From Roridomyces roridus (Eukaryota; Basidiomycota; Agaricomycetes; Agaricales; Mycenaceae), in the NCBI GenBank assembly GCA_029378245.1, contig JARKIF010000013.1:682001-746000 (forward strand): a stretch of DNA of 64,000 nt, in the 5' to 3' direction. The notes under the pieces are model-generated. The model had not been told where the DNA came from. It did no database searches and saw only the letters and a program-made list of their open reading frames with translations. Every line of letters starts with the position of its first letter. Positions within the stretch are counted from its first letter, which is position 1. Below, in pieces: positions 1,311-17,701 of the stretch. The position numbers and the translations under genes are program-made.

Positions 1311-1744
1311 CACACCGCAGGACCCCGATTAAAAGGCCGCCCAAAGCTTCATTTTTTTGCTAGATATCGTAGTACAAAACAATGTTCTAGTTACTCACAA
1401 TAACAGTGTAAAAAAAAATCTCCTTCAGTTGCAGCCTGATACCTGTAGAAGTTAGATGTGAAAACGGGTCGGTGATATGCCGAGTAAAAAGCCGGGAGCC
1501 GAGCGAGCCGTTTCAGTGTGTATTTGATGTGATATCACGGCGCCGTTGCGCTGCCGTGCTTTTAGCCATATTGATCAGCCAATTTTGATACATGATATCA
1601 CTTGAAACAGGCCAAGCCACAGATGCCGAATTATTGCCGGTAAAAGGCCCGAAATCAATGAGCCCGATTTCTGCGATAAAACGCACCTTTTTGTGCATCG
1701 GTGGATGATCCACCGACGGTCGCGCGCCCGTCCGACGCTCATCG
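1311..1744 (+). repeat. Left terminal inverted repeat of the transposon
   Basis: 434 bp matching the reverse complement of 17263-17696. It contains local palindromes: CGGTGGAT/ATCCACCG around 1699-1715 and, at its inner edge, CGTCCGACG (1729-1737) with CGTCGGACG (1743-1751) around a 5-nt loop. Flanked on the left by ACT (1308-1310). Confidence 0.9.
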
Positions 1745-4664
1745 TCGGACGTACAGAAAACAAATCATGCAGTGTATTATAGTAGGTAAAAAATGTACAA
1801 GCGACTACTGAGATGTTGCTGCTGAGGCAGACTGATGATCCAAGTAGTCGGCACAGACACTGTCGAGGTTCTTGGCAGCGCGCAAGACGGCGTTATACCC
1901 GCGAATCCGCCTGGCCCAGCGCGCGTTGTTCAAGACGACGGCCTTCCCCTCAGAAATCTCGCCCAGGATGCCCTGGAACCACGACTCGCAGTCTGGTGAC
2001 CACCAGCCGACGTTCATATCAGAGTTGTAAAACGCGCCGGCCTGCGGCCACCATGAGACACGCTTTTCTTGATGTCCACTGGCGTCGACGTGTCTGAGCT
2101 GGTCTGTGGTTATGAGTTAGCCTGTAGACTGAAGTAAGAAAATGAAGATACTCACTCATCTGGATCGAGTACACCCCCAAAATGAGATCCTCCTCTTCCT
2201 TGGTCAAGCAGTGGTAGTAGACCGTAATGCCGTCCGCGCGGAAGCTTTCCTCGGCGGTCTCGACATCGACATCTTCTGTCATGAGTTCCAGACGAGAATC
2301 GGGGATGAATAAACGCGCTAAGCGAGCAATGATACCCCCAGCTTGAAGAGCGAGCCGGCCACGAGAGGAGCAGAGGAAGCGACGGAGCATGTGGAGGTAC
2401 TGCTTGGCATCGTGTTGATCTGGTCTATATCCCTCGGGACGGACACCGAGACTGGCACAGCGGGGCAGCGGGATATACGAAGAAGGCTGGAAATCGGTGT
2501 GCTCGACGGCAATCTGAAAGGGAGCGCCCAGATCATACAGCTGCGAGACGATATCACGCCAATCTTTGCATTGGAGGCGAACAATTTGCATTGCCGTGGC
2601 TCCGCTGTAGACAACGATCCGGCGCGCGCTTTCAACACGAGGCTCGAGAACATACGCGGTGGAGCGGTGCTTTAGCGCGCTCACCTTCTCGAAGATATCG
2701 ATGGTGACCCCTGAGTTGTCCTCGATTTCAAGGAGCGCATCAGGGTTACAGAGATCGAACAGTTGCGCGGGCATTTCCTGCACCGTTGTTGCAGAGGCAA
2801 GGGAGTGCACTAACGCCAGAGCTGCCTGACCCAAGGTTGCCGCAGGTTGACTCTTGTCTCCTAAAAAGCGAGAACAAATTTCAGGGCGGGAAAGCTGGTT
2901 GGGGGAGAAGCCAGCGCCTGGCGCATCAACCAGGCCAACGCGACACTCCAGAGTGTTCTTGAAAGTGAAGTTTGCAGCAGGCTTTTCGACTTTGTAACCG
3001 TGGTCGTTTCGCTCGGCGTCGTCGTCGTAATTGTAATCGTTGTCTTCAAAGTACGCGTCGACATGCTCGAACGTGGCAGCAGCCGAAACTGACTGCACTT
3101 CGGCGGGGGCAGAGGGCTGCGTGGCAGAGGTGTCGTTAAACCAGTCCTCCCAGCCGGGAGGATTGGGTGTTTCGTCCTCATCCGAGTCGTAAGAAACGAC
3201 TGCTTGAGGGTCGAGAGGCTCGCAGAGGTCCCATTCGTTTTTGAATGGGTCAAAAACTCGCTGTGAATGGGCGAAATTATCCCATTCATCCTCGACCATG
3301 TTTCTTTGCAGCAGCTTTCTGACCCAGAAATCTTCGACCTTCTCCCAAATGAAAACCCGCGCGCCTCTTTTGGAGGGGCAGAGTTGTTTCTCTGCAGCCT
3401 GAAGGCGAGAGACACGCCTCTCTCTGTCCTGGGCTGTTTCTGCAGCAATTTTTACGCTGTTGCGCTCCTCCCGTCGCGCGAAGAATTCAGTAAACGTTTG
3501 TCCCTCGCTTTGGTCGCTGTGTCTTTCTACAGGCGGAAACTGAGGTTGGGGTTTGACCGTTGCCAGATATTCGGGGTTGGGGAGGATGCCCCATCGGCGG
3601 AAATTCGACTTGATGTAGACATATTCGGTCAGTTTGACAGGGGACGGAGGAAGATCTCCCAGCGTTCTTGCCTCATGCTGAACGTATCCGGCAATACGGC
3701 GCATGAACGGGTAGTCCTCGAGCCATGAAGCCCTGTTGGCCGCGGAACTGCCGTCTTTGCCTAAGAAAAAGTAGATTGGGACGTGGATCTTAACCTCGGC
3801 ATCCAGAATGAGAGTGAATAACCACTTGATGTCGTTGATTGAAGACTCGGAGGTGTCAACGATCATCCCCGCTGGGTGTCGGAGTACCATTTCGACGGCG
3901 TCTTCCAGCGAGTCCATCATTCTGTACGGGAGGCGTGTTCTTTCCACAAACTCAGCACGCCAGTCTTTCTGTTGGACACTACCGTCGAGGATGATAAAGT
4001 GCATTGCGATGGCCGCAAGCATTGCGATGAATGCGTCCCGGGAGCGGGCCACGGCTCTCAGAAGCTCGTCTTTGATGCGATAGGACGCGGCATAGCCGCA
4101 TTGAAACGGACGAGCAGCACTGGCGCAATACTGTTGCGGGTAGAGCACTTTGAAGACAAGTGCTCCAGCACATCAGTCAAAAGACCCTCCAAACTTGACC
4201 ACCGCTCTTTGAGGTCTCGGCCCACTGTCCAGTACTTGTCATGAGAATATGTGTGTGACGCTAGATGAATTGAGGGTATTGAGACATCAAGAACTTGCAG
4301 CAATGGGCTGTCGTACACCGGATGACGCGGAGCCAAAGCATAATGAGACGCGCCAACACGAGTCCATGTCGTTGTGTACATGGTTCCATCCGTATTGGAA
4401 CCCTCGCGGGTGGGGATGTTGAGGAGAGCGGTGCGATTGGCATTGAAGACGAGAAATACACCATCGTCATTGCGGACGACGCCATGGAAGTGGTCGGTAG
4501 GCTGGAATTCCCTATTAGCACCAACACAAAAGCTGGAGAGTAGACTATATACTTACACTAAGGGTGCGTTTCTCTTCCTCAGTAAGAACGCCCAGGGGAA
4601 CGAGGCGGTAGGCGCCATGGTGGAACTCCGGCGGGCTTCCGAGATTGGAGGTGAAGGGTGTCGG

Positions 4665-4908
4665 AGCAGCAGTAGGGCCTGGCGGCGGCTGCCTTGGCTC
4701 TGAGAGCAGAGTATTCCTCGAGAAATCGGGCGGCAGACGCCTCGATTCCTGTCCGCGACTCATGGCGTTTACGAGATTGGAGCTGGAGGGTGTCGACGAC
4801 CACGATGACGAAGCAGCAGCAGGGCCTGACGGCAGACGTCTTGGCTCTGAGCGCGAGGTGTGCCTCGAGGAATCGAGCGGCAAACGCTTCGATTCCTCTC
4901 GGCGATCC
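4665..4908. repeat. Imperfect tandem duplication (~148-bp period) inside exon 1 of the 1805-4910 gene
   Basis: 4665-4760 and 4812-4908 align over about 95 bp with the same order of landmarks: an AGCAGCAG run, GGGCCT, a hairpin core, TTGGCTCTGAG, and a second hairpin core flanked by AATCG/CGATT arms. The duplication gives the protein two similar N-terminal segments (ESKRLPLDSSR and ESRRLPPDFSR) and carries two core hairpins per unit. Confidence 0.75.
4724..4898. repeat. Constant-core hairpins inside coding sequence (two clear, one weaker)
   Basis: 4724-4747: arms AATCG/CGATT around core GGCG-GCAGA-CGCC. 4867-4898: arms GAGGAATCGA/TCGATTCCTC (10 bp) around core GCG-GCAAA-CGC. A third copy at 4828-4840 has the core GACG-GCAGA-CGTC with imperfect outer pairing. 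These lie in the N-terminal coding exon of the 1805-4910 gene. Confidence 0.75.
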
Positions 4909-5055
4909 ATGTGTTCGTCAAGGAGGGTGAGTGGACTGAAAGAAAAGAGAATGGATGTGATAACGTGATGTGAATGATGTGGCAAGCGATGATCGGCCAT
5001 CAGCGGACCATCGCTTGTCAATCATCGCTTCTCTCTCTCTCTCTTCTCTCATGTC

Positions 5056-5253
5056 CTGCGAGGCGTCTGCCGCCCGCAGTGCTCTGGGCTTTCTCTCCAT
5101 GCCACTCTGTCCACACTGCGAGGCGTCTGCCGCCCGCAGCGCTCTGGGCTTTGGAGCTCTCGATGCCATCGTCCGTTGGCATTGTCGGCATATCTTCGTG
5201 TCGATGATTGTCTAACTCTTTCGCTACTGCTACCAGGCGTTTGCCGCTGGTAG
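5056..5253. repeat. Three constant-core hairpins upstream of the 1805-4910 gene
   Basis: 5056-5079 and 5116-5139: arms CTGCG/CGCAG around GGCG-TCTGC-CGCC; these two are a local duplication 60 bp apart. 5230-5253: arms CTACCA/TGGTAG around GCG-TTTGC-CGC. They lie in the intergenic space between two minus-strand genes, 5' of one and 3' of the other. A (TC)n tract precedes them at about 5028-5049. Confidence 0.8.
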
Positions 5254-5332
5254 AACATCTTTCGGCTTCGTCTTTTGCACAAGGTTTCAGGCACACGAGA
5301 AGCGTATATTGAGCTGGTACTTAAGTAACTAA

Positions 5333-7485
5333 TTACATTGCCATACGCTCAGTTGCCGCCACAAACAACGCAAAGACCTCCTTCGACACCTTCAACTCCT
5401 TCACCTGCTTTGGGGAGAGCGAATTGAACCAGTTGCTATCGTACAAGCATCTGGGAAGACCCTTCGGAGCAGCTCTGTTGCCGGTGTCCTTGCTTCGTTC
5501 ACGAACGGCGGACTTGGTCCCGTTATGAATATCCTCGAAACGCTGCTTCTGCATGTCCACCAAGCGCATTATCTTCGCAATGTCGGGCTCGCGCCAGACA
5601 CACAACAGGATCTGGAACGCCTTTACCTTTTGACCGCTAATGGTCTTGGGTATTTCTTCTTCCTCCGACATCCCGTCACTCTGGAGATGATCGAGCAACT
5701 CGAGTATGCGGTTCCACGTCGCAAGATCACTCGCACCCTCCGTCTCCTTCATCGCAATTACCGCCTCGGTGGTGTTGCGACGAACCAAGAATTTCTGGCA
5801 ACTTCATTTAGCCAGTGCGACCGTGAAGCAAAATTACTTACTCTTCTCTGTGCATTGATGGATTTGGAGTTCATGCGCCGCATAAACACCATGACCTTCC
5901 CGCGAGCAACCGCTTCGGCTTTCGTCTCAGCACGATCCTTGTCTGGCAACCATCTGGGCTGGAACAGCTTCCAATCCCCCCGGTATCGCTCCAACTGCTC
6001 CGAGAGGACGAACTCCAAAAACTCACGGTGAATTTCTCCCTTTCTAATGTACTGCATCCCTTTCTCATCCTCTTTGATAGCCGCATTGATAAGTCTTTCC
6101 ATCTGGACTGCATTCCACGCGGAATCCAAGTAGCCCGTATTGAAGTCCCACTGCCAATGGGAAAGGGTTGCGTTCTCGGCCTCCGCAAAATCCTCGACCT
6201 GGCGCTCGGTCGCCGGCGAATGGAAGATGAAGTCGCTGCCCAACTCGACTTTAAACTTCTCAAATGTTACTCTGCGCAACAAGGACTGTAACCTGTAAGT
6301 CTCTTTTTTGTTACAAGCCTGTTTGTTTCACTTACGTGTGTATGGAGGACAAGTTCTTTGGTCTCGGGCGCGCAGGCCTTCTTCATATCCGCCTTGGCGC
6401 TGGACTTGCGCGGGCGGGCTTTTGTGTTGACGGCCACCTGCACATTATCGTCCTGCAGTGCAAGCTTCAACACACCCATCAACTCGGTCAAGCCGACTAC
6501 GTCCATTTCCATCTTTGCGGCAAAACGCTCAACAAGTGGATTCACCGGCACAACAGCCGGCTCCGCGGGACTCTCCGCTGGAAGCGGAGCGGGATTGAGT
6601 GCGAGAGTGGGGAGCAACTGTGCGGAAGGATCCTTTCCAAAAAGCTCGTTTGTGACGCGTCCACGACGCCGTATGGGCGTAGCCTTGGCTTTGGCACGCG
6701 CTGCTGCCTGGATCTGCAAGCGAAGATGATTGACTTCATCATCTTGCTTATGGACCTGCGCGCGAAGCTGGTGGAGCTCAATATCACGCGCTTGCTATGC
6801 TCGTGTTAGAATGTTCACGAGTTAGACATTGATTTAAATACATACCATTGCTTGTTGCACCTGATACGCTTGCGCAGAAGCCTCGGCAGCCTGTCTCTGT
6901 GCGTTGTTCACTTGTTGCAACTACAAGATTGTCGTCAGCATACCACCTCGTTTACTGTGCAAGGGAATTTACCAAGTTACTCAGCCGTTCTTGGTCGTGC
7001 TGGATTTGCGCATGCAAGCCAGTCTCGTCGTAATCCATCCGCTCCATCTGCGCTTGACATTCAGCAATCTGCACCTGCAGTCGATGCACCTCCTCTTGAC
7101 GGTCCTTGATAACGATTTCCGCCTGGGTGAGGAGCACACGAAGGTTTTCGTTGTCTTGAGCGGCCGCGCGGTTTTTGGCGCGGGCATCCCTGTGTTGCTC
7201 CTTGTAAAATTTCTCGTTCTCGCGAACCTGGTACAGAATCAGCATATCACAAAATTGAAACACACCACGTACCTCATCGAACGCATTCCGGCCGGGACCA
7301 CCAATAACCGTTCTCTTAGCGCGGGAACCTTCAGTATCGTCCGTCGTAACCCTGCGGCGCTGCTACAACCAATCAACATTAACAGAAGAAGCGCGCGTGA
7401 ACAACAACATGTACAGGGGCCTGGTACGGTGTGTCTACGGGCGTGTCCACGGGTGGTGTGTCCATCGTCTTGTCGATGTTACTCA
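5333..7485 (-). CDS. Transposon-borne coiled-coil protein, unknown function
   Basis: Starts at 7485 (MSNIDKTMDTPP) and reads through about seven exons to a TAA at 5333-5335. Introns are short: 52 bp after PYQAP, then GTACGT…CAG after RNAFDE, GTAAAT…TAG after QERLSNL, GTATGT…TAG after VQQAM, GTAAGT…CAG near 6300, and GTAAGT…CAG near 5790. After a Thr/Pro-rich start, roughly residues 45-170 are Glu/Gln/Arg-rich with heptad spacing (KEQHRDARAKNRAA, QEEVHRLQVQIAE), indicating a coiled coil. The C-terminal half is mixed alpha-helical in character, with no motif I recognise (for example KFKVELGSDFIF and GLPRCLYDSNWFNSLSP). All exon joins keep frame, so the gene looks intact. A structural or oligomeric accessory role for the transposon is inference only. 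Confidence 0.75.
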
Positions 7486-7840
7486 TTGAAGATTGGTGCT
7501 GGCTGTTCCCGCGGCAGACGCGTGGAGCAGAAGTTGGAAGGGGGAGATGGAGAATTCTGGAGACGGACAGACGTTCTTTATGAGGCTGCTTCAGTCATTG
7601 TACTCATTGTTGCTATTGTTTTCCGATGGAGAACGAGTAACAATCAAGCATCTCGTTATACAATAACAAGCGCATCCAAACTGGGAGCTCTGTCCCAAGA
7701 CGTTTGTATTCTGACGAAAATCAAAACCATACAATGAGGTAGTATCTAGATTGTTGTAAAGCTAACAGTAATATCACTGAATTTCGAACGGCGACCTGTT
7801 CTTTGCGAGCGCACAATCTTATCTCCATGGCCAATGGATT

Positions 7841-7870
7841 GTCGGCCGATGATCTTTGGCATCGGCCGAC
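7841..7870. repeat. Perfect 11-bp-arm hairpin, copy 1
   Basis: Arms GTCGGCCGATG and CATCGGCCGAC around an 8-nt loop, followed by GATCTTTCGCTTAT and a CTCGG. The same arrangement recurs at 8139-8168. Confidence 0.85.
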
Positions 7871-8138
7871 GATCTTTCGCTTATCGTCTCGGTTTTTGCT
7901 TTGGTGGATTGGTTTCAGTGTTGCTTCTTATGTAATGCGCCTTGGTTCTATTCCGCCTTGGTGCATCCTTTTTCCTTTTTGAAAGTTTACTTTTGAACAA
8001 ATCTGCTTCTATAGGAACTCTTCAAAATACCCTCAAAGGTGATCCCCATCATGAATCCGTGCCAGGTTGTGAATTGAGGCAGGTTAAACGGTGGGGGAAC
8101 ACCTTCCCATCAGTTTGATGTAACCCCACCTCCATTTC

Positions 8139-8168
8139 GTCGGCCGATGATATTTGACATCGGCCGAC
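8139..8168. repeat. Perfect 11-bp-arm hairpin, copy 2
   Basis: Same arms as 7841-7870, with loop ATATTTGA instead of ATCTTTGG, and again followed by AATCTTTCGCTTAT and a CTCGG. The two are direct repeats 298 bp apart; the sequence between them is not otherwise repeated. Confidence 0.85.
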
Positions 8169-8313
8169 AATCTTTCGCTTATTGGCTCGGTCACTTTCAG
8201 GCTCAAAAACAATGAGTTTTATTGCAGCAAGGTTAAGTACATGTATCAGTAGCTACAGCGCCGTGTATTGGTAGGTACAAAACATGTAGTAGTGTAGCAA
8301 ATACTACACTACT

Positions 8314-9104
8314 TCAAGTCTTGCGGTTCTGAAAAGTAATGTGTCAGAGCAAACAACGACAGAATAATACGCGTACAGAGCGTAAGGTCCTAGCGGCGGC
8401 CAGAGTTGCCTTCTCGTTCGCCTTCGTTTCTTTGGCAGCTGAATTCTTGCAAGTTCGGATCAGGACCTTCTCGAGAGGCCAATACTCGACAAACTTGTCG
8501 ACAACGGGATACATGTGCAAGATCTGCAGACAATTAATGAGACCACATGCATAGGGAGCACGAGACTATACCTCAGCCACAATCTCAGCCTTGGCGTTTG
8601 GATCCTGATCAGACAGTGACAAGCTGGGCTTGAACTTCTGGGCAATCAGGGCCTCGACGGCCCCCTGATGAAAGACGAGGACAGAGTGAGATGAATAGTT
8701 TGAGAACCAGAAACCAAACCACTTACCTGGAATTCCGTCACAAACTCGGATGTCCACCCGGTTAGAATCCGAAAGTCCGCGTCCTTGACGTGGGAAGCGC
8801 CACCGAGCGGGACAAGGAGCGATATTTTCGAGAGGCTGAGGTCCTCAGAGTCATACTCTGGGCTGTTTGATCTTGAGAGTGGGCGCGAGAAAGCGACCTT
8901 CATGGGTGCACGCGCCTTGGGCGCGCTGTTCTTGAGCACGCTGGCTTTTGGCTCGACAGGTGGCAGAGAAGGGCTGTCGTCCAGATCCTCATGCATGAGA
9001 AGCTGAGGGAACCGTGGCTTGGCAAAGTCCGTGTGCGCGAGGGGAACAATGAGAGGGAGAGGCGGTTCTGCCACCTCAGCGACGAAGCTTGCGACCGAAG
9101 GCAT
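8314..9104 (-). CDS. Small transposon-borne protein, unknown function
   Basis: Begins at 9104 (MPSVASFVAE) and uses four exons. The splice pairs are GTAAGT…CAG after FVTEFQ, GTATAG…CAG after KAEIVAE, and GTACGC…CAG after TLRS, ending NRKT and TGA at 8314-8316. The product is about 210 residues: a Pro/Ser-rich first half followed by a helical part (LHMYPVVDKFVEYWPLEKV) and a basic tail (KETKANEKATLAAART). No domain is recognised. It is divergent from the WD40-like gene at 9322, with about 217 bp between the starts, so they may share a promoter region. All joins are in frame. Confidence 0.65.
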
Positions 9105-9321
9105 GGTCGGGGAGGGTGAGACGCGTTGGTGGAGAGTTTATCTCCGTTGGGCTGAAGGCGCAATTGTTCTTGATGCCTACCTCCGCACCGACGTGCAACG
9201 TACACGAGCCTTTTGTGTTTATTGTATTTCGTCAAAGTCGCTGTTTATTGTATTTCGTCAAAGGAAAGGCGCCGAGTACTAGTATAATACAAGAAAGGCT
9301 CACCTTGTCCGCGTCAAAAGC

Positions 9322-10724
9322 ATGGATAACCACCCAGCAGATAAGAAGATCGACTATCGCCTCCAAGGCAAGCTTGTCGGCCATGCAGGTGCCATTTTCG
9401 CCCTCTCGGTGCGCGAAGACGGCAAATTTGCGGCCAGCGGCGGTATGGACCGTTTGCAGCCTCTTGCAGCCTCTTCCCTGTTAACGGGAGCACCCATCTA
9501 GGCACTGATGGTACCAAAGTCTGGGACTTGACAACGTTTCACAGCATTGCCGAGGTTCCAGCGGCGCCCGATATCCGAGGGGCCACGACATGCCTGAAGT
9601 GGATCAAGCGCGATGACGATGTGAGCGAAGCGATGGTGTACGGTTCCCAAACTGGGTATTTGGTTTGCTGGCAGCAAGACGACATGGTGCGTGCCCATTG
9701 GACTTGAATACGACCGCGTCTCTTCTAATTGGTTTCGTCCAGCGCACCAAGGATGGCAAGACCGCTCGCTTCAAAGAGATCTGGTGCCGCCAATTGAACG
9801 ATCCCTCCGAGATAACCGGCATTGCGTTCGACGAATCGACTAATCGCCTCGCTGTGTGCCATCTTGGCGGGGTTTTTCAGATCTACAGCTTGAGCGCGAA
9901 GATGGTCTTGAAGGAGGTGCTGTCGAAAAAGATCGCCAAGTGCACTCCCGCCGCTATTGCGTTTGGGGAGATTCACGGAAACGAGCGCGAGCTGCTCATA
10001 TTCGGCGTCCACTGTGGGCTTGTGTCAGTTTTTTTTGTACATTGTCCAGAGAGCAAATACTCACCCCAGTTTTCAGATACACGGTTCGTGGACTCGAGGT
10101 CTCCACCGCTGCCGAGGCATGGAACCTTGGGTGCAAAATGTAAGTTTGTGCTGTATTTCGGTTGTGTGGAATCTGATTACCCTGCTCAATCCAGCTCGGC
10201 GGTCGCAGTAGACCATAGCAAGGGCATCATGTGCATCGACGATCCCTCCACCGGCGTGCATCTCTACCGCCTAAACGGAGCCGAACGCGAACTCCTGAAC
10301 AGTTTTCCTGTTTGCGTTAAAAAGCGCCGCCGTGTCCGCCAGGTGGCGCTTGCGGATGCGGGTCGTGTCATTGTGAGCAGTAGCGACCATGGTACGGTCT
10401 ACGTGCGGAGCCGTCGTGCTGGCAATTTGCTAGCCAAACTGCAAGTCGACACTGATGAGTTTGTCCAGACGGTGACGGTAAGTGTTCAACTCACTGCTGG
10501 TACGGGCTCATGGATTACAGGCATCCGACATCGCGGGCATTCCCACCATCTTCGCGGCCAAGTCGTGCGATATGAGTGGCAGCAACGACATTTTTGTCTA
10601 TCTCCAGACAACGAAGACCACGCATCGTTTTGTAGAGAAGATTGGCGCAATGTGCACCTCTCTTGTGTGGTATATAGTAGTATTCGCAGCGATGGCATTC
10701 GTATACGACAACTGGGGGATTTAG
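9322..10724 (+). CDS. Transposon-borne WD40-repeat protein with hydrophobic C-terminal tail
   Basis: Starts at 9322 (MDNHPADKKIDY). The N-terminal blade LVGHAGAIFALSVREDGKFAASGG, interrupted by an intron (9443-9501), continues GTDGTKVWDLTT, a classical WD40 repeat ending in WD. Further beta-propeller-like segments follow (YGSQTGYLVCWQQ; ITGIAFDESTNRLAVCHLGGVFQIYSL; VIVSSSDHGTVYVRSRRAGNLLAKL). Five introns of 44-59 bp keep frame. The last exon (from about 10523) ends with a stretch of about 20 hydrophobic residues (LVWYIVVFAAMAFVY) and DNWGI before TAG at 10722-10724, so the protein may be tail-anchored. WD40 proteins are scaffolds for protein contacts. Similar WD40-like proteins are, to my knowledge, numerous in mushroom genomes; their role in a transposon is unknown. 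Confidence 0.75.
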
Positions 10725-11244
10725 CTACTTTGAAGTATCTTCTGCCTATGTAGTCTGTAACAAGGCGGCCAAAGTGTCCATCCCAGTGAACGGCAGATGT
10801 AACGAATGCCTAAGATGTAACGATCTCGACGGCAAACGTCTGAGATGACAGAGAATGAGAGGATGTGACAAAAATGAAAGATCAAGCAATCTCGACGGCA
10901 AACGTCTGAGATGGGTGAGAGAACAGTGCTCTTCTACCAAAGGAGTAAGGCAGCACAAGAAAGCAACTGATACCAAACCATCTCGACGGCAAACGTCTGA
11001 GATGGTGGAGGCTGAAGATGAGACGACGGTGTTGTCACTGCTTTGACGATGATTTGTCAGCCATTGCGGGCACATGATGCCCGGGTTTTGGGACGTAGAA
11101 AGCGTCGTTTCATGGCAACACGAGCAGATTCGAGTCTGGATAATCAAGGAGGTTGTATTTAATTCCACTATACTACTACATAGACCGTGTACGCTATCAC
11201 ATGAATAATTGTGCCGTCTTCTCGAAGATCGAGTCTTCATAACG
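10725..11244. other. Non-coding stretch with three constant-core hairpins
   Basis: Lies between the 3' ends of the WD40-like gene and the minus-strand 11245-12113 gene. It carries three near-identical hairpins within 185 bp. A minus-strand open frame crosses it, but codons look arbitrary and it encodes the hairpin repeats, so I do not call it. Confidence 0.55.
10823..11005. repeat. Three constant-core hairpins with ATCTC/GAGAT arms
   Basis: 10823-10846 and 10889-10912 have arms ATCTC/GAGAT; 10978-11005 has arms CCATCTC/GAGATGG. All share the core GACG-GCAAA-CGTC followed by one unpaired T. Confidence 0.85.
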
Positions 11245-12113
11245 CTACAACTCCACTGAGCTAAAGTATACACGATGTAAACAGCCAGAAAAACTAACCG
11301 GAAGACAAGCAGACGTGTTTTGAGCACGAGCGTGTTGAGCGCCCACCTGCGCGTAGCCGTGAGGGCATAAGCGCACAGACTTGAAACCGTGCATACACCG
11401 GACAGAGTTGCGAGGGGAGTGAGTGAAGTGAGTGGATTGAGCAAAGCCGTGAGGGCAGCGGGGCTGTAACCGTTTTGAGTCTCGAGGCGTAGTGCAATCC
11501 GTTTGCAACTTACCGTGGGATGTGATTTATGTGAGGGACGATCGCGCTTTTTTCTGGTGGAGGTGCGCGGCGAAGTTGATGGCGCAGAACGAGCAGAGTT
11601 TGAGGACGCAGTGGAAAGAGATGCGCCGAGATGGGATTGCGACGGCTGGCCGGCGTGCATGGGCATTGACGCATATTTTGAGACTATGGATGACCGAGAT
11701 ATTGATGATCGTGAATGCGAAGAAGACGTAAAGAGAGCCTGGCAGTAGGATTAGCAGCATGAAAAAAACAGTTTAACCATCGATACATACTTCGGAGAGC
11801 CGTATGTTTTCAAGCTTGGTGATGAGGCGCTGAACTCGTTCCTCACTCGAAGGAGACCACGCTGCAGAGCGAGAATGCTGAGCAATATACAACTGGAGGA
11901 TGAGTTTGAGTAGGGAGAAAATACGGAAGTACAAACCTGCGCAGGCAGCCCATTGCTTTTTGAGAGGAGTAAAGTCGACTCCAGCATGGGAAGCAACGGA
12001 CTTGCTGATTGTGTACGTCTCAATTGATAGGGATACTTGTAGGGATTGCTGAGAAGGTTTGGTGTGGTGGGAAGGGATTTTGAGCCACGGCGGTCGGAGG
12101 TCAAGCGCTTCAT
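11245..12113 (-). CDS. Hypothetical Ser/Arg-rich protein with C-x2-H-G repeats
   Basis: Low-confidence model. Starting at 12113 (MKRLTSDRRGSKSL), frame is kept across introns GTTTGT…CAG after SNGLPAQ, GTATGT…CAG after ENIRLSE, and GTAAGT…CAG after SHKSHPT. The middle exon is Ser-rich and basic. The last exon carries three related units, CPHGFAQ, CMHGFKS and CPHGYAQ, that could bind metal, but they are encoded by repeated DNA (GCCGTGAGGGCA), so they may simply reflect local duplication. The end at 11245 is an in-frame TAG. No homologue is recognised. It lies between two clusters of constant-core hairpins. Confidence 0.35.
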
Positions 12114-12357
12114 GACCGATACTTCAAGGATTGTAGCGGCTTAAAGAGGCTTGGCTCACAGCGCGCAAGTCGATAAGCCCGAGACGATAAGCGCAACACA
12201 ATGGAGCACTTGAAACGGCTTGGCTCCCAGCGCGTTGGAACAATAAGCCTGCCAGTGAGACAAAAGACGGGCAAAGATCTATGGAAGCGAGTGTGTCGCA
12301 GTGGAGTAACGAGGTCACCGCAGCAGATGTCGGCCAGCAAAGGGGATGGGTACACAG

Positions 12358-12583
12358 CTCACGACGGCAGACATCTGTGAGTAGGTACCACGCTCACGAC
12401 GGCAGACGTCTGTGAGCGCAGGTGGGGAGGACGAAGAGGGCGGTGGATGAGGCTGTGCAAAGCTGTGCCGTGGATCAAATTTCGTCAAGTCCACCACCAC
12501 CAGCACACACACCGGTGTCAGACGTTTGCCGTCGACACCGGTGGTGCTGCAGATGCTTCTACAAGACGTTTGCCGTCTGTAGA
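12358..12583. repeat. Four constant-core hairpins with four arm pairs
   Basis: 12358-12381: arms CTCAC/GTGAG, core GACG-GCAGA-CATC (one pair lost). 12391-12418: arms CGCTCAC/GTGAGCG, core GACG-GCAGA-CGTC. 12511-12542: arms ACCGGTGTC/GACACCGGT, core GACG-TTTGC-CGTC. 12558-12583: arms TCTACA/TGTAGA, core GACG-TTTGC-CGTC. The arms differ from one another but each pairs with its own partner. Confidence 0.85.
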
Positions 12584-12752
12584 GCTCACCTCCCGCGCCG
12601 GCGCCCATCGCCGAGGGCTTATTGTTTCGCGGATCGTCGCTTGTCCAATTGTCGTATCTGTACCGTCTGTAGAGCTCACCTCCCGCGCCGGCGCCCATCG
12701 CCGAGGGCTTATTGTTTCGCGGAACGTCGCTTGTCCAATTGTCGTATCTGTA
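12573..12752. repeat. Tandem duplication of a 90-bp unit
   Basis: 12573-12662 and 12663-12752 are nearly identical, starting CCGTCTGTAGAGCTCACC. The first copy begins inside a constant-core hairpin, so the duplication breakpoint falls in the hairpin. No gene is seen across it. Confidence 0.9.
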
Positions 12753-12847
12753 TCCATCGAGGCTAGTCACTCTATGCTCCAAATGTACGCTTTCTATTGT
12801 TCCCAGCGCTTAAAACTCACTTGGCTTTGCAGATTGTCCGCATCGTT

Positions 12848-13304
12848 ATGGCCTACTGCCGCGCAAATCACCACCACCATCGCCAATCTCATTCCCGCTC
12901 GTCCTCCAGGACAGCATCGTACGAGCATATCAAGAATCGCAATTTTGCGTCCTCCGCTGACTGTAAGTCTCAATTTCCGTCGTTCTGTACTCGGAACTCA
13001 GTGCTTTTTACAGCAGGCCCTCCGCACCTTTGTCTTGATTGCAATATCTGTCCCATCTGCAGCCTGCCTTCGACTGAAGCTCCGGCTGTGGCTCCCGAGC
13101 CCATTCCCGTAGCAGCAGATCGTCGTAAGTATCTTCTTGCCTCACTCAGTTCCTCGTCTGACGCTGACAATTCTCTTAGGGCGCTTTTTCCCACAGATTT
13201 CGCCGCAGCTCCTCTTCACACTGTTTCTTCTCGAGGCGCACATCAGCGGCAACTGGCTCCATGTCGTTGCTTACGTTCTAGTCCTCGGAATTTTTGCCTG
13301 TTAA
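12848..13304 (+). CDS. Small Cys-cluster, C-terminally hydrophobic protein
   Basis: Translation from 12848 (MAYCRANHHHHRQ) joins three exons in frame, with splice pairs GTAAGT…CAG near 12964-13013 and GTAAGT…TAG near 13125-13180. The product is about 120 residues: a His/Ser/Arg-rich start, a compact cysteine cluster (CLDCNICPIC) that could form a metal site, a Pro-rich linker, and a hydrophobic C-terminus (LLFTLFLLEAHI, WLHVVAYVLVLGIFAC) ending in TAA at 13302-13304. It lies about 130 bp upstream of the transposase on the same strand. The start is uncertain; an upstream exon is possible. The hydrophobic end parallels that of the WD40-like protein of the same element. Confidence 0.5.
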
Positions 13305-13410
13305 TTGTGTCGGAATGGGGATGTACAGAATACAATAAGAACACCGGTCTTTGTACTCGAATATACATATAAGACGACTTCCTCACCCACTTGCGCTCAC
13401 ATTCGGCCAA

Positions 13411-13434
13411 GCGTCAGACGTCTGCCGTCGACGC
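13411..13434. promoter_or_regulatory. Constant-core hairpin one base before the transposase start codon
   Basis: Arms GCGTC/GACGC around GACG-TCTGC-CGTC, ending at 13434; the transposase ATG is 13436-13438. As RNA it would fold directly against the start codon, so an effect on translation is possible, but this is inference. It belongs to the same family as the hairpins between 4.7 and 12.6 kb. Confidence 0.6.
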
Positions 13435-13435
13435 A

Positions 13436-16400
13436 ATGCCCGCTTCTTCCACGTACCCATGCAGACAATGCCCCTTGAATCATAATCGTCTCCATCATGT
13501 GCCCAAAACCATGCGGGTGATACACAATGCAGATATTGTTGCCTACTGGGAGCGGCAATCTGCACCCCCTGCTATCGAGCGCGGTGCCGCTGTGGAGCTC
13601 GAGGCTGCTGACTCCTCGGGCATGGCGAACACATCTGCGCAGCTACCGATGGTCGAGGACAAGGTTATGCCAGTTTCTCAGCCAACACCGTTGGCCGGAG
13701 TCGAAGTAGAGGATGCGGAAGCTGAGATTGCACGACTTTCCAGCCTCTTTACTGGCTTGGTCGTTGTGGACGATGGTGCTCCTTCTCATCAACAGATCCA
13801 CTCGAAACTCTTCAGCTCGCGCGAAGATTTTCAATCCGACGCCCCAGTGGTTCCAACGGCTTTTACACCAGTCTCGGCCGCGCAAGTCCTCCAGAGCTGT
13901 CAAGCTGTTGCTGGGTCGCTGCCGCTCCAGCCGGCTGCTCTGCAGGTGCGGGAGAACGATGGAGCTCTCCTGCGATCCATGCTGCAGCGAATTCGTGACG
14001 CGCAAACAGAACTCAATCTGCAGCGCGCACTACAGGCCGGCCCTCAAGCGGCTCTTTTGTTACGCGGCGCTCTTGAGGACGCAACCTCCATTGTGATCGA
14101 GGCAGGCCGGCTTCTCTCCAGCATCAATCCTCCGAGTAATCGAAAGCGAAAATCTGCGCGGAGGAAGTCTCGTCTCGACGAGGATCCGAGCTTTGAGGAG
14201 TTGCTGCGTAGTCTTCGAGAAGAAGCCACGGTTCTCGATAAATCCATTGACGTCGTTGGACGTCTCCTTCCCCCACCTTCCGATGAAGTTTTTCATGACG
14301 CTGGTATGTCCTTTCTGCTCATCTGCCTTGACCTTGACTGACCAAACACTTAGAGCATCATTTCGAGAATCCTATCGCCAAGTACAGCATTGTCGCTCAA
14401 CTATCGATTCTTCTTGCTGTTATTTGCCACATCGTCATTGGCATCAGCATTCTAGATACCGATTTTATTGTTGCTTTTGTCAATATGATAATAAAGGCGA
14501 CGATGTCCGCATGCTCTCCCGGAGATCAGACGCAGGCGAGTGCGACACAGGAGCAAGTCCTCAAACAACTTCCCACGTCCCTGGACGCCGCACTGCGAAG
14601 TTTCAAAATTGATCCCGCAACCACCATCTACGCGACTTGTCCCTCTTGCCATCATACACACTCGCCAACGGAGAACCGGCTCACAGGCGAAACCTCCTAC
14701 CCCGAATTTTGTCAAGGTTATGTGTACCCTGAGCGTGGTCCTCGCGTTGCATGCGGCACACGTCTGCTTGAGCTGCGCCAGGAAAAATTACGGCCTATCA
14801 AACCATTTGTATTCCCTTCGTTCATTGATTACATTGCGGCCATGCTCTCTGACGCAGATGTCGAACGAATGTGCGAGGCAGCCTGTGACAATGCCTTTGC
14901 AGCGGTTCGTGAGGCTCTCTCAAAGGACCCTCACGCGCCCGTCTCCGAAGAGCGAGTCAACAATATTTTTGAGGCTGAGTTTCTGCGCAGCTTCAAGGGC
15001 CCTGTTCCAGACCAGCTGTTCATACAGCAGGACGGTCGACTGCGGCTCGCTTTCGAGGTCATGCTTGACTTCTTCAATCCGGATGGGACACGGAAACGTG
15101 GAAATCACAATTCTATCGGCATCTTGGCGGTGGTCAATCTCAATCTCAGCGAAGATATCCGCTATCGCCCAGAGTTCATGTGGTTGAGCATCATCCTGGG
15201 CCCTAATGAGCCTAACCACGACCAGATCGACAACTACTTTCGCCCTCTCATCGACAAGTTTGCCTTGGGATGGGAGCGAGGATTCCGGCTTTCCCGCACT
15301 GCCCTCCATCGCTCAGGTCGTTCCGTCGACATTGCACTAGCAATCAACGTCAACGACTTACCCGCTACACGAAAAGCCATCGGTCTTGCTGCCGCAACCT
15401 CACATGACTACTGTTCAATCTGCGAATGCCACGGTGTGAAGACGATGTATAACACGGAGTTTGCAACTTGGAAGCGACGAGACATTACATTGCTGCGTGC
15501 TCAAGCGTATGCCTACCGAGATGCCCCGTCGCAAGCTGCCCGCGACGCGATATTTGCCAAGTATGGTGTTCGGTGGTCTGAGTTTTGGCGTCTTCCTTAC
15601 TGGGATCCCACTCGCATGGCCGTTGTTGATTCAATGCACTGTATATTCGAAGGCCTGGTGCATCATCATTGTCGTCGAGTACTACGAATCGATACAAAGT
15701 TGGCAAAACGCAAAGAAGCGATGGGTGCTGCTTTTGAGCAGGATTGGTCAGAGTATGACCCAGAGAATTGCCATCCTTCGGCCTGCTTGAGGAACGAACG
15801 GAACGAGCCTCCCATGATTCGCGCCATTCAGAATACACTTGTGCAACCTTTGCTGGAGGAGGACAGTGATGATGAGGACGCGTCAATGCCTGAATCCGAC
15901 GAGGATGAGTTGATGCCCGACGTTGTCGATCCCAAGCTTGTCCCAGCTCTCACTGAGGCGCAGATGCACAAGAGTTTGATGAGTAACAATCTCCAGCCGC
16001 TTCGCTGGGTCATTTGGTCGCTGGGACTGGACATGGCGCCTGAGCGCATCGCTACGAAGAAGCTCTGCTGCGACGAGCTTATCGCTTGGGTGAGTCCAGG
16101 ACTTTTGTTCTTTTGTTAGTTACTTAGACATTAATCAAATGCATCTAGCGTCGCACTAAGCCATTCAGTAGCGGCTTGTACATCCCTCGCTCAATTAATC
16201 TCTCAAACATCCACTTCATCCAGCGCGTCATTGCCCAAACCGACACGCCTGGGTGGGTAGGTTCAGTCCCTCACAATTACGGTGATAGCAACGCGGGAAC
16301 GATCAAGGCTGCTGAATGGCGAATCCTTGCCACTATCTATCTGCCCATCGCCCTTATCATTCTTTGGGGTGATTGCGACACACCGTCGCTGCGACTGCTC

Positions 16401-17216
16401 CAGTTGTTGGACCACACGATGGCACTCTTCACCGCCGTCATCCTTATCTGCCGCTACACCATGACACGTGCACGTGCGATTAAATATCGTTCCCTCCTCA
16501 AGCGATGGGTGGATGGCCTTGGCGAAATTCATCCCCACACCCGTTCCCATGCTATGCGGCCCAACGTCCACATGGCTTTCCATATCTACGACTTCCTCTT
16601 ACTCTTCGGCCCCGTCATCTCGTGGTGGACATTTCCTTTCGAGCGCATCATCGGATTCCTCGAAAGAATCAACACCAACAATCATATTGGCGGGGAGCTC
16701 GAAGCCACGCTCTCCAGATCTTTTTTGCGTGGGGCAAGCATACGTCGCTGGCTTCGCAGGCCCGACTGTCCAGCAGTCTTTCAGGAATTGAATTCCCTCT
16801 TCGAAAAGACCTTTCCGGCTTACAATACACCAACGGACTCCCCGCCGCTCGCATCAGATGGTGAGCGCGCTCACTATCGGCGAGACGGCATTACTTTCTC
16901 CCGAGCGAGCACGCACCAGGGTAATAGCCTCGTGCTGTATTATCCGCCAAACTCTCGCGAGGTCATTCCCGGGAGCATTCAGAAGATACTATCCACTGGA
17001 GCAGAGGTGCAGTTCCGAATCCGACGTCAAGCCCCATTGGAAGTGGGGATGCGAGATCCGTTCGCGCGTTATAGGCCTCTGTTTCCCGCACATACCTACT
17101 CATCAAAGATGAGTGATATTGTAGATACTGTCCCACTGCACGATATTTCCTGCCACTTTGCTCGCTTCAAGTTTCACGGTGGCCGGTGTGTCGTTCTAGA
17201 TCTCTCCAATAGCTAG
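13436..17216 (+). CDS. Tnp2-type (CACTA/Plavaka-like) transposase
   Basis: Three exons: 13436-14303, 14354-16089 and 16149-17216, with introns GTATGT…TAG and GTGAGT…TAG, giving an uninterrupted 1223-residue protein. The N-terminus has a Cys/His cluster (YPCRQCPLNHNRLHH) that may be a zinc site. A hydrophobic segment after the first intron (IVAQLSILLAVICHIVIGIS) is followed by a CPSCHHTH motif. The catalytic region shows features of fungal Tnp2 transposases: YCSICECHGVK followed by an FATWKRRD, then DSMHCIFEGLVHHH, then in exon 3 PFERIIGFLERINTNN. The enzyme would cut and join the inverted-repeat ends in the nucleus. No frameshift or stop is seen, so it may be active or recently active. Family membership comes from motif resemblance recognised by eye. 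Confidence 0.9.
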
Positions 17217-17262
17217 TATAGTCGGTATTGGTGGAATACACATTTTTTTCCCTTTACCTCGG

Positions 17263-17696
17263 CGATGAGCGTCGGACGAGCGCGCGACCGTCGGTGGATC
17301 ATCCACCGATGTACAAAAAGGTGTGTTTTATCACAGATATCGGGCTGATTGATTTCGGGCCTTTTATCGGCAATAATTCGGCATCTGTGGCTTGGCGTGT
17401 TTCAGGTGATATCACGCATCAAAATTAGCTCATCCATATGTCGAAAAGCACGGCAGCGCAACGGCGCCGTGTTATCGCATCAATTACACACTGAAACAGC
17501 TGGTTCGGCTCCCGGCTTTTTACTCGGCATACCACCGACCCGTTTTTGCATCTGACCTTTACAGGTATCGAGCTGCAGCACAAGGAGCTTTTTTTTCACA
17601 CTGTTATTGTGGGTAACTACAACATCGTTTTGTACTAGTATATCTACAATAAAATTGAAGCTTCGGGCGGCCTTTTAATCACGGTCCTGCGGTGTG
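17263..17696 (-). repeat. Right terminal inverted repeat of the transposon
   Basis: Inverted partner of 1311-1744, ending in GGTGTG at 17691-17696 and followed by the ACT target duplication (17697-17699). The match stops close to the transposase stop codon (17216), leaving about 45 bp between gene and repeat. The inner hairpin seen in the left copy is only partly preserved here. Confidence 0.9.
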
Positions 17697-17701
17697 ACTA
17701 T

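Follow-up and report, generated by a model that had tools for sequence, protein, structure and literature searches.

To our knowledge, little is known of the means by which large eukaryotic DNA transposons of low copy number restrain their own transposase. Lambdoid phages carry boxB RNA hairpins in their leaders, which combine a fixed pentaloop with variable paired stems and, like the N proteins that go with them, are phage-specific. The single-stranded RNA phages MS2, PRR1 and M possess a hairpin at the replicase start that has an unpaired purine in its stem and serves as the binding site for a protein of the same phage (PMC3561173), iron-responsive elements (IREs) are bulged hairpins in the untranslated regions (UTRs) of several transcripts (PMC4977773), the bacterial transposon IS10 limits transposase initiation at the mRNA level (PMC5006887), and VANDAL transposons contain VANC, a short motif dispersed within one transposon family (PMC5735166). 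Here we analyse a 64,000-nt stretch of Roridomyces roridus DNA (the window; assembly GCA_029378245.1, contig JARKIF010000013.1, positions 682,001 to 746,000), which contains a complete 16.4-kb CACTA/EnSpm-type transposon, element W (1311..17697). W holds 15 hairpins with variable but paired arms and a fixed bulge and loop, and we give roughly an even chance to the explanation that they are cis-acting RNA operators in the 5' leaders of mRNAs made from the transposon itself. Our searches of the open-licence literature turned up no account of hairpins like these.

Hairpin structure and arm covariation

The hairpins of W are built as arm-A-GACG-TYTGC-CGTC-arm', with variants. Read in the TYTGC orientation, the base immediately 5' of the 13-nt core is A at all 15 sites, and in the ten distinct arms it is the sole unpaired base of the 5' side; the invariant columns are this bulged A, the loop T-Y-T-G-C (in which Y is variable) and the closing pairs, and covariation is seen in the outer pairs of the core (GACG/CGTC, GGCG/CGCC, AGCG/CGCT and CGCG/CGCG). 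A preliminary description made from the sequence alone had listed 13 copies and two weaker ones at 4828 and 7511, all of which are present, and had pointed to self-complementary arms that differ between copies. Copies inside one cluster share arms by local duplication, leaving about ten independent arms, not fifteen. Across ten distinct arms, 47 of 50 inner positions form Watson-Crick pairs, compared to a mean of 19.4 and a maximum of 43 when the 3' arms were permuted (200,000 permutations; each distinct arm was represented by a single site, giving 10 of the 15, among them the weak copies 4828 and 7511), and alternative bulge offsets pair 7-13 of the 50.

When all 15 sequences are compared over 14 pairs, 81.4% of cells are paired as opposed to 56.9 ± 2.5% after shuffling, and two-sided changes affect 56 cells as opposed to 21.7 ± 3.6, neither value being reached in 500 shuffles. 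Two coarser covariation measures are weaker (reached by 18 and 7 of 500 shuffles), and slid registers pair 29-54% of cells. A scan for hairpins of the strict build returned 14 in the W interior against 1.1 ± 1.0 in 20 shuffles, and the 46 kb of host sequence flanking the element contained 2 against 3.8 shuffled. The selection on structure that had been offered as one explanation for the differing arms is supported. An Rfam scan of the element gave three matches up to E 10, all under their gathering scores.

Three copies lie on the minus strand within the apparent first exon of gene A, a putative gene with no assigned function (1808..4910, minus strand; inferred ATG at 4910): 4724..4747 (arm AATCG), 4818..4851 (weak arms, mismatch beside the bulge) and 4867..4898 (9-bp arm), the last a short way 3' of the inferred ATG. 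Next come three plus-strand copies, 5056..5079 (arm CTGCG), its local duplicate 5116..5139 (also CTGCG) and 5230..5253 (arm CTACC), and, on the minus strand, 7503..7530 (arm CTGCTCC, one mismatch). Five further minus-strand copies stand at 10823..10846 (arm ATCTC; 3' of a WD40-like gene), 10889..10912 (arm ATCTC), 10977..11006 (arm ACCATCTC), 12358..12381 (arm CTCAC, one core wobble) and 12391..12418 (arm CGCTCAC). The remaining copies are on the plus strand, at 12510..12543 (10-bp arm CACCGGTGTC), 12558..12583 (arm TCTACA; 264 nt 5' of the inferred ATG of gene E) and 13411..13434 (arm GCGTC).

A 90-bp tandem duplication (12573-12752; 98.9% identical) overlaps hairpin 12558, and its second copy contains only the 3' half of that hairpin.

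Confinement of the exact core to one element

The exact 14-nt core AGACGTYTGCCGTC, which accounts for 8 of the 15 window sites, has 15 matches in the 90.8-Mb assembly (501 contigs), eight in W and seven in a second copy of the element on contig C279. The restriction to the transposon claimed earlier therefore holds for the exact core (15 of 15 matches). A looser core, GRYGTYTGCYGYC, that covers 12 of the 15 window sites matches the genome 166 times when the element copies are counted in; its reversal matches 149 times, so the looser core is at background. Arm pairing at core matches, the check that the preliminary description had called for, was examined in DNA from 27 sources. In these 27 sources, a covariance model built from the 15 W sites gave 29 strong matches, namely the 15 training sites and 14 in C279, and two further marginal matches (E 2.7) in the same element as the strong ones; it had no match in the sister elements described below or in host DNA among these sources.

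Position relative to start codons

We compared W with three sister elements, C368, C486 and C480, whose transposase exons are about 55-60% identical to those of W. Two genes concern us most: the transposase gene T (Transposase_21/tnp2; 13436..17216, plus strand, several exons) and gene B, a putative gene with no assigned function (5333..7486, minus strand; inferred ATG at 7486). In W, C368, C486 and C480, respectively, a hairpin ends 1, 0, 0 and 0 nt 5' of the T ATG in the hand-drawn structures (RNAfold gives 0-1 nt), and 16, 5, 6 and 24 nt 5' of the B ATG. All eight T and B starts in the four elements therefore have a hairpin 0-24 nt upstream, compared to at most four of eight when 39 hairpins were placed at random in 200,000 trials, which used hand-assembled hairpin lists and ignored shared ancestry. 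Because the sister lists were made by hand, weak sister copies may be missing. In W, the two copies concerned are 7503..7530 and 13411..13434, both in sense orientation, and the latter, already noticed as a copy beside a start codon, is key to our interpretation. The T start codon is backed by annotated Mycena citricolor proteins (P0028 and P0030), which match the T N-terminus and share its Cys-rich start.

Loop orientation at the eight starts is uniform within each element, with TYTGC in W and TGT, TGTT or AGT in the sisters, the equivalence of the sister orientation to TYTGC being judged by eye. The occurrence of hairpins at the same start positions in four diverged elements indicates vertical inheritance. 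No hairpin was found at the four starts of gene D and the WD40-like gene that were examined (D in W; WD40 in W, C486 and C480), and the gene E start of C480 has a hairpin of different sequence 4 nt 5' of its ATG. TATA-like words, found as loose words in a scan without a control, occur 68-101 nt 5' of the T ATG in all four elements (in W, a plus-strand TATAAG box at 13368..13373, 68 nt 5' of the start codon) and 83-96 nt 5' of the B ATG in two of four, with none at seven other starts scanned. These words place the hairpin sites probably inside short leaders.

Hairpin families of the sister elements

The evidence from the sisters consists of a repeated core, arm pairing in C368, and position. 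C368 has its own family of nine copies, AACG-TACT-GTGC-GTA-GCAC-CG-CGTT with variants, whose outer arms are paired and variable in eight of nine. At outer arm positions 5-8, 27 of 36 are paired against 18.4 when permuted, a value reached by 161 of 100,000 permutations; this test kept all nine copies, including the poorly pairing 8598, and positions 1-4 are too uniform for testing. Genome-wide, the C368 pattern has 22 matches against none for a reversed control, 18 of them in sister elements and four elsewhere (C1, C21, C257 and C471). A further sister, C190, has two extra matches to this pattern (118479 and 122497) in a stretch of about 6 kb that, from the match spacing, is seemingly absent from C368.

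Hairpins with the core ACGT-TGT(T)-ACGT or GTGT-TGT(T)-ACAC are common to C486, C480 and C368, and this second pattern has eight genome matches, every one in a sister and with one site scored on each strand, against none for the control. The word RYGT-TGT-ACRY occurs four, eight and three times in C368, C486 and C480, not at all in W and once in 46 kb of host DNA. Read by eye as ACG-TTGTA-CGT, the sister core lines up with ACG-TYTGC-CGT of the window, an alignment that carries no computed homology. Since loop and core have changed among related elements and positions have been kept, each element or small group would have its own operator type. Nine distant transposase relatives or loci with terminal inverted repeats only (L026, L027, L028, L032, L033, L044, L046, L048 and L049) contain no repeated hairpin family; five isolated hairpins are spread over four of these loci. 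L044, L045 and L049 have a single RYGT-TGT-ACRY word each.

Comparison with described systems

The hairpins of W and its sisters resemble the phage coat operator, a short hairpin at an initiation codon with an unpaired stem purine and a fixed loop letter, of which analogues exist across phages (PMC3561173, in part). The placement at an initiation codon recurs here within 24 nt at all eight T and B starts, though at just 2 of the 15 window copies. Unlike the phage operator, they belong to a eukaryotic DNA transposon, are present in many copies per element and concern two or three genes; they stand before the codon, not around it, and their protein partner is putative. With IREs they share one bulged base, a short upper stem, a fixed loop and a paired lower stem and, as proposed, a UTR location and several transcripts (PMC4977773, in part). 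They differ in having a bulged A in place of C, a 4-bp in place of a 5-bp upper stem and an exact core limited to one transposon. They are not themselves IREs by the definition in that source, as all 15 have a TYTGC loop and not CAGUGH, and none has a bulged C under a 5-bp stem. By analogy, the hairpins would operate like phage operators and IREs, and we class them as neither.

As in IS10, transposase initiation would be limited at the mRNA level, but IS10 is bacterial and uses Hfq at the ribosome-binding site together with an antisense RNA, and its abstract does not mention dispersed hairpins (PMC5006887). The VANC motifs of VANDAL elements are likewise short, dispersed in one transposon family and shifting among related elements (PMC5735166, in part), as seen here in a W model without sister matches and in sisters with families of their own. 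VANC, however, is a double-stranded 9-nt motif, often in tandem in non-coding DNA, and the words 'hairpin' and 'palindrom-' are absent from the available text of that source; a double-stranded motif free of pairing constraint does not describe W, where the arms covary.

The boxB hairpins mentioned above differ from those of W in serving transcription antitermination and in occurring in one or two copies.

Proposed function and alternatives

Each hairpin is a stem broken by a small bulge or internal loop below a short loop of fixed sequence. As the stems need only to pair and the bulge and loop are fixed, the structure resembles a protein-read site; together with the confinement of the exact core and the kept start positions, this fits a protein-read RNA element at translation initiation. 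Under this operator explanation, we infer that the sites are transcribed, that they have a protein partner and that its effect is to limit expression. The hairpins against the T and B start codons would most likely be translational operators, at which a bound protein, probably element-encoded, or else the unaided stem, would restrict initiation and in this way determine how much transposase and B is made. Intergenic and 3' copies would be additional sites for the same putative protein. A further, more tentative idea, which we consider possible yet hold at less than even, is that this transposon lineage has its own RNA operator code, in which an element-encoded RNA-binding protein is matched to private hairpins, controls translation of T and its partner gene and co-evolves with them, so that relatives within one genome are regulated separately. 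Such element-specific families would let related transposons in one nucleus be controlled independently, and a structure-selected hairpin at the transposase start of four diverged elements is a concrete, testable candidate for a post-transcriptional switch.

Several observations weigh against the operator explanation. Only two of the window's 15 copies sit right against a start codon. Another eight (5056, 5116, 5230, 10823, 10889, 10977, 12358 and 12391) are outside leaders or have a loop orientation opposite to the nearest gene; a protein may bind them in 3' or divergent transcripts, or the site may have an additional function as DNA. The hairpins nearest to the inferred ATG of A are distant, 145, 176, 159 and 189 nt upstream in W, C368, C486 and C480, and in W (5056..5079) those upstream of A are in the opposite orientation. 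The eight T and B start contexts come from related elements and so are not independent. Two sister elements have few hairpin copies, C480 just three listed ones, and the strict-build scan of the sister interiors shows no excess (1, 3 and 2 against 1.5, 1.8 and 1.6 shuffled), because sister hairpins have wider internal loops. Mismatches counted by eye on the TYTGC strand comprise five internal G.U (one each at 4724, 5230 and 12358, and a further two in the 12391 outer arm) versus two A.C or C.A (4818 and 7503), and the types in sister hairpins are mixed, favouring no single strand. No RNA-binding domain is recognisable in the element exons scanned.

The orientation and intergenic clustering of many copies would suit DNA sites at which a transposon-encoded factor binds extruded hairpins or palindromes and keeps the element active, much as VANC and VANDAL do. 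Copies in both orientations and element-specific families favour such sites, and VANC motifs also differ among related transposons (PMC5735166, in part). We nevertheless regard them as rather unlikely: a double-stranded site requires no pairing of freely varying arms, three copies lie within the apparent first exon of A, and the placement at every T and B ATG would be odd for a DNA operator. The accessory-protein sites suggested in the preliminary description, if of TnpA type, are also unlikely. TnpA-type binding sites cluster in subterminal regions, and every hairpin is more than 3.4 kb from the left end and more than 4.2 kb from the right end; among the roles offered there, RNA structure is best supported. 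Stems could also act as plain barriers that reduce translation of T and B without any partner, since predicted folding of the 50 nt 5' of all eight T and B starts is -11.6 to -19.5 kcal/mol, compared with -0.6 to -7.4 kcal/mol at nine other starts (-8.0 at the C480 E start). These minimum free energies fall between the 2nd and 32nd percentile, which is ordinary for such GC-rich elements and tells against the operator explanation as well; moreover, plain barriers would neither keep the bulge and loop over 15 sites nor scatter copies in intergenic DNA, and we consider them unlikely.

The distribution over genes raises the question of whether the hairpins separate the cistrons of polycistronic transcripts, for re-initiation or processing. 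Such mRNAs are reported in mushrooms (PMC4503453, in part), D and WD40 diverge from a common start region and have hairpin-free starts where examined, the downstream B, A and T have hairpins, and the arrangement fits C368 too, in which the B-D-WD40 block is inverted. However, T has its own TATA-like word in every element and B in two of four, and a ATACAATAA-type box stands 105-137 nt 5' of one of these two genes in three elements (T in W, B in C486 and C480); we hold this arrangement to be improbable. More improbable still is the tiny foldback mobile unit put forward at the outset, or a process of inverted copying of flanking DNA. A core that stays constant while arms vary among sites speaks for either, but the exact core is found nowhere else in 90.8 Mb, the same positions are filled in four diverged elements, and inverted copying leaves the constant bulged A unexplained. 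The earlier interpretation thus stands for structural selection, exact-core restriction and the start-codon copy, and finds no support for the foldback unit.

Structure and gene content of element W

W has the termini CACACCGCAGG and a target-site duplication (TSD) of ACT, and its terminal inverted repeats, at 1311..1765 (plus strand) and 17242..17697 (minus strand), are each about 455 bp long and 88-89% identical. The C279 copy is about 99.65% identical, with unrelated flanks on both sides and the TSD AAA; both 3-bp TSDs were identified by eye. The Transposase_21 (tnp2) domain scores 34.9 bits against a cutoff of 28.6 (E 1.2e-8), and the ends CACACC..GGTGTG with 3-bp TSDs agree with the rules that separate CACTA/EnSpm from Plavaka elements (PMC12730594, in part). 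The TGT..ACA or CATCA..TGATG termini of Plavaka transposons in the same source are absent from W, and the Pfam Plavaka model reaches 14.5 bits against a cutoff of 26.3. From the domain, the CAC..GTG termini and the TSDs, we group W with CACTA/EnSpm and not with Plavaka. Five loci (C458, C328, C223, C157 and C124) share with W only 46 bp of terminal repeat (91%) and, judged by this similarity, are possibly short non-autonomous relatives; no W-family hairpin is present in their available stretches.

The assembly has intron-bearing genes. In W, A, B, T and the WD40-like gene (9322..10753, plus strand) have relatives in all three sister elements; small gene D (8347..9104, minus strand; no assigned function) has matches in C368 and C486, and small gene E (12848..13301, plus strand, exons approximate) a related stretch only in C480. 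The predicted fold of A has a mean pLDDT of 65 and no PDB match at E <= 0.001, and no transposase relative was found in IMG/VR with one sister protein as query. A minus-strand open reading frame at 10749-11750 has no sensible sister match and was treated as a non-gene.

Three elements have a repeated ATACAATAA box 70-148 nt 5' of starts of the T, B, D and WD40 genes (window 9226, 9252 and 13331; C486 11746 and 12978; C480 9996 and 10005, in concatenated loci). Across the roughly 62 kb of the four elements, TACAATAR has 11 matches, with C368 contributing none, compared with 2 in 46 kb of host DNA. Two near-identical hairpins unrelated to the family, GTCGGCCGATG-N8-CATCGGCCGAC, lie between B and D (7841-7870 and 8139-8168), and GC-rich hairpins stand at the inner boundaries of the terminal repeats, or close to them, in W (window 1729-1751), C486 and C480. 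Finally, the C279 copy contains a 1.84-kb insertion at window position 10897-10900, which splits hairpin 10889 and has CATCA..TGATG ends and a GG duplication; these ends fit the terminal rule of PlavakaB (PMC12730594, in part).

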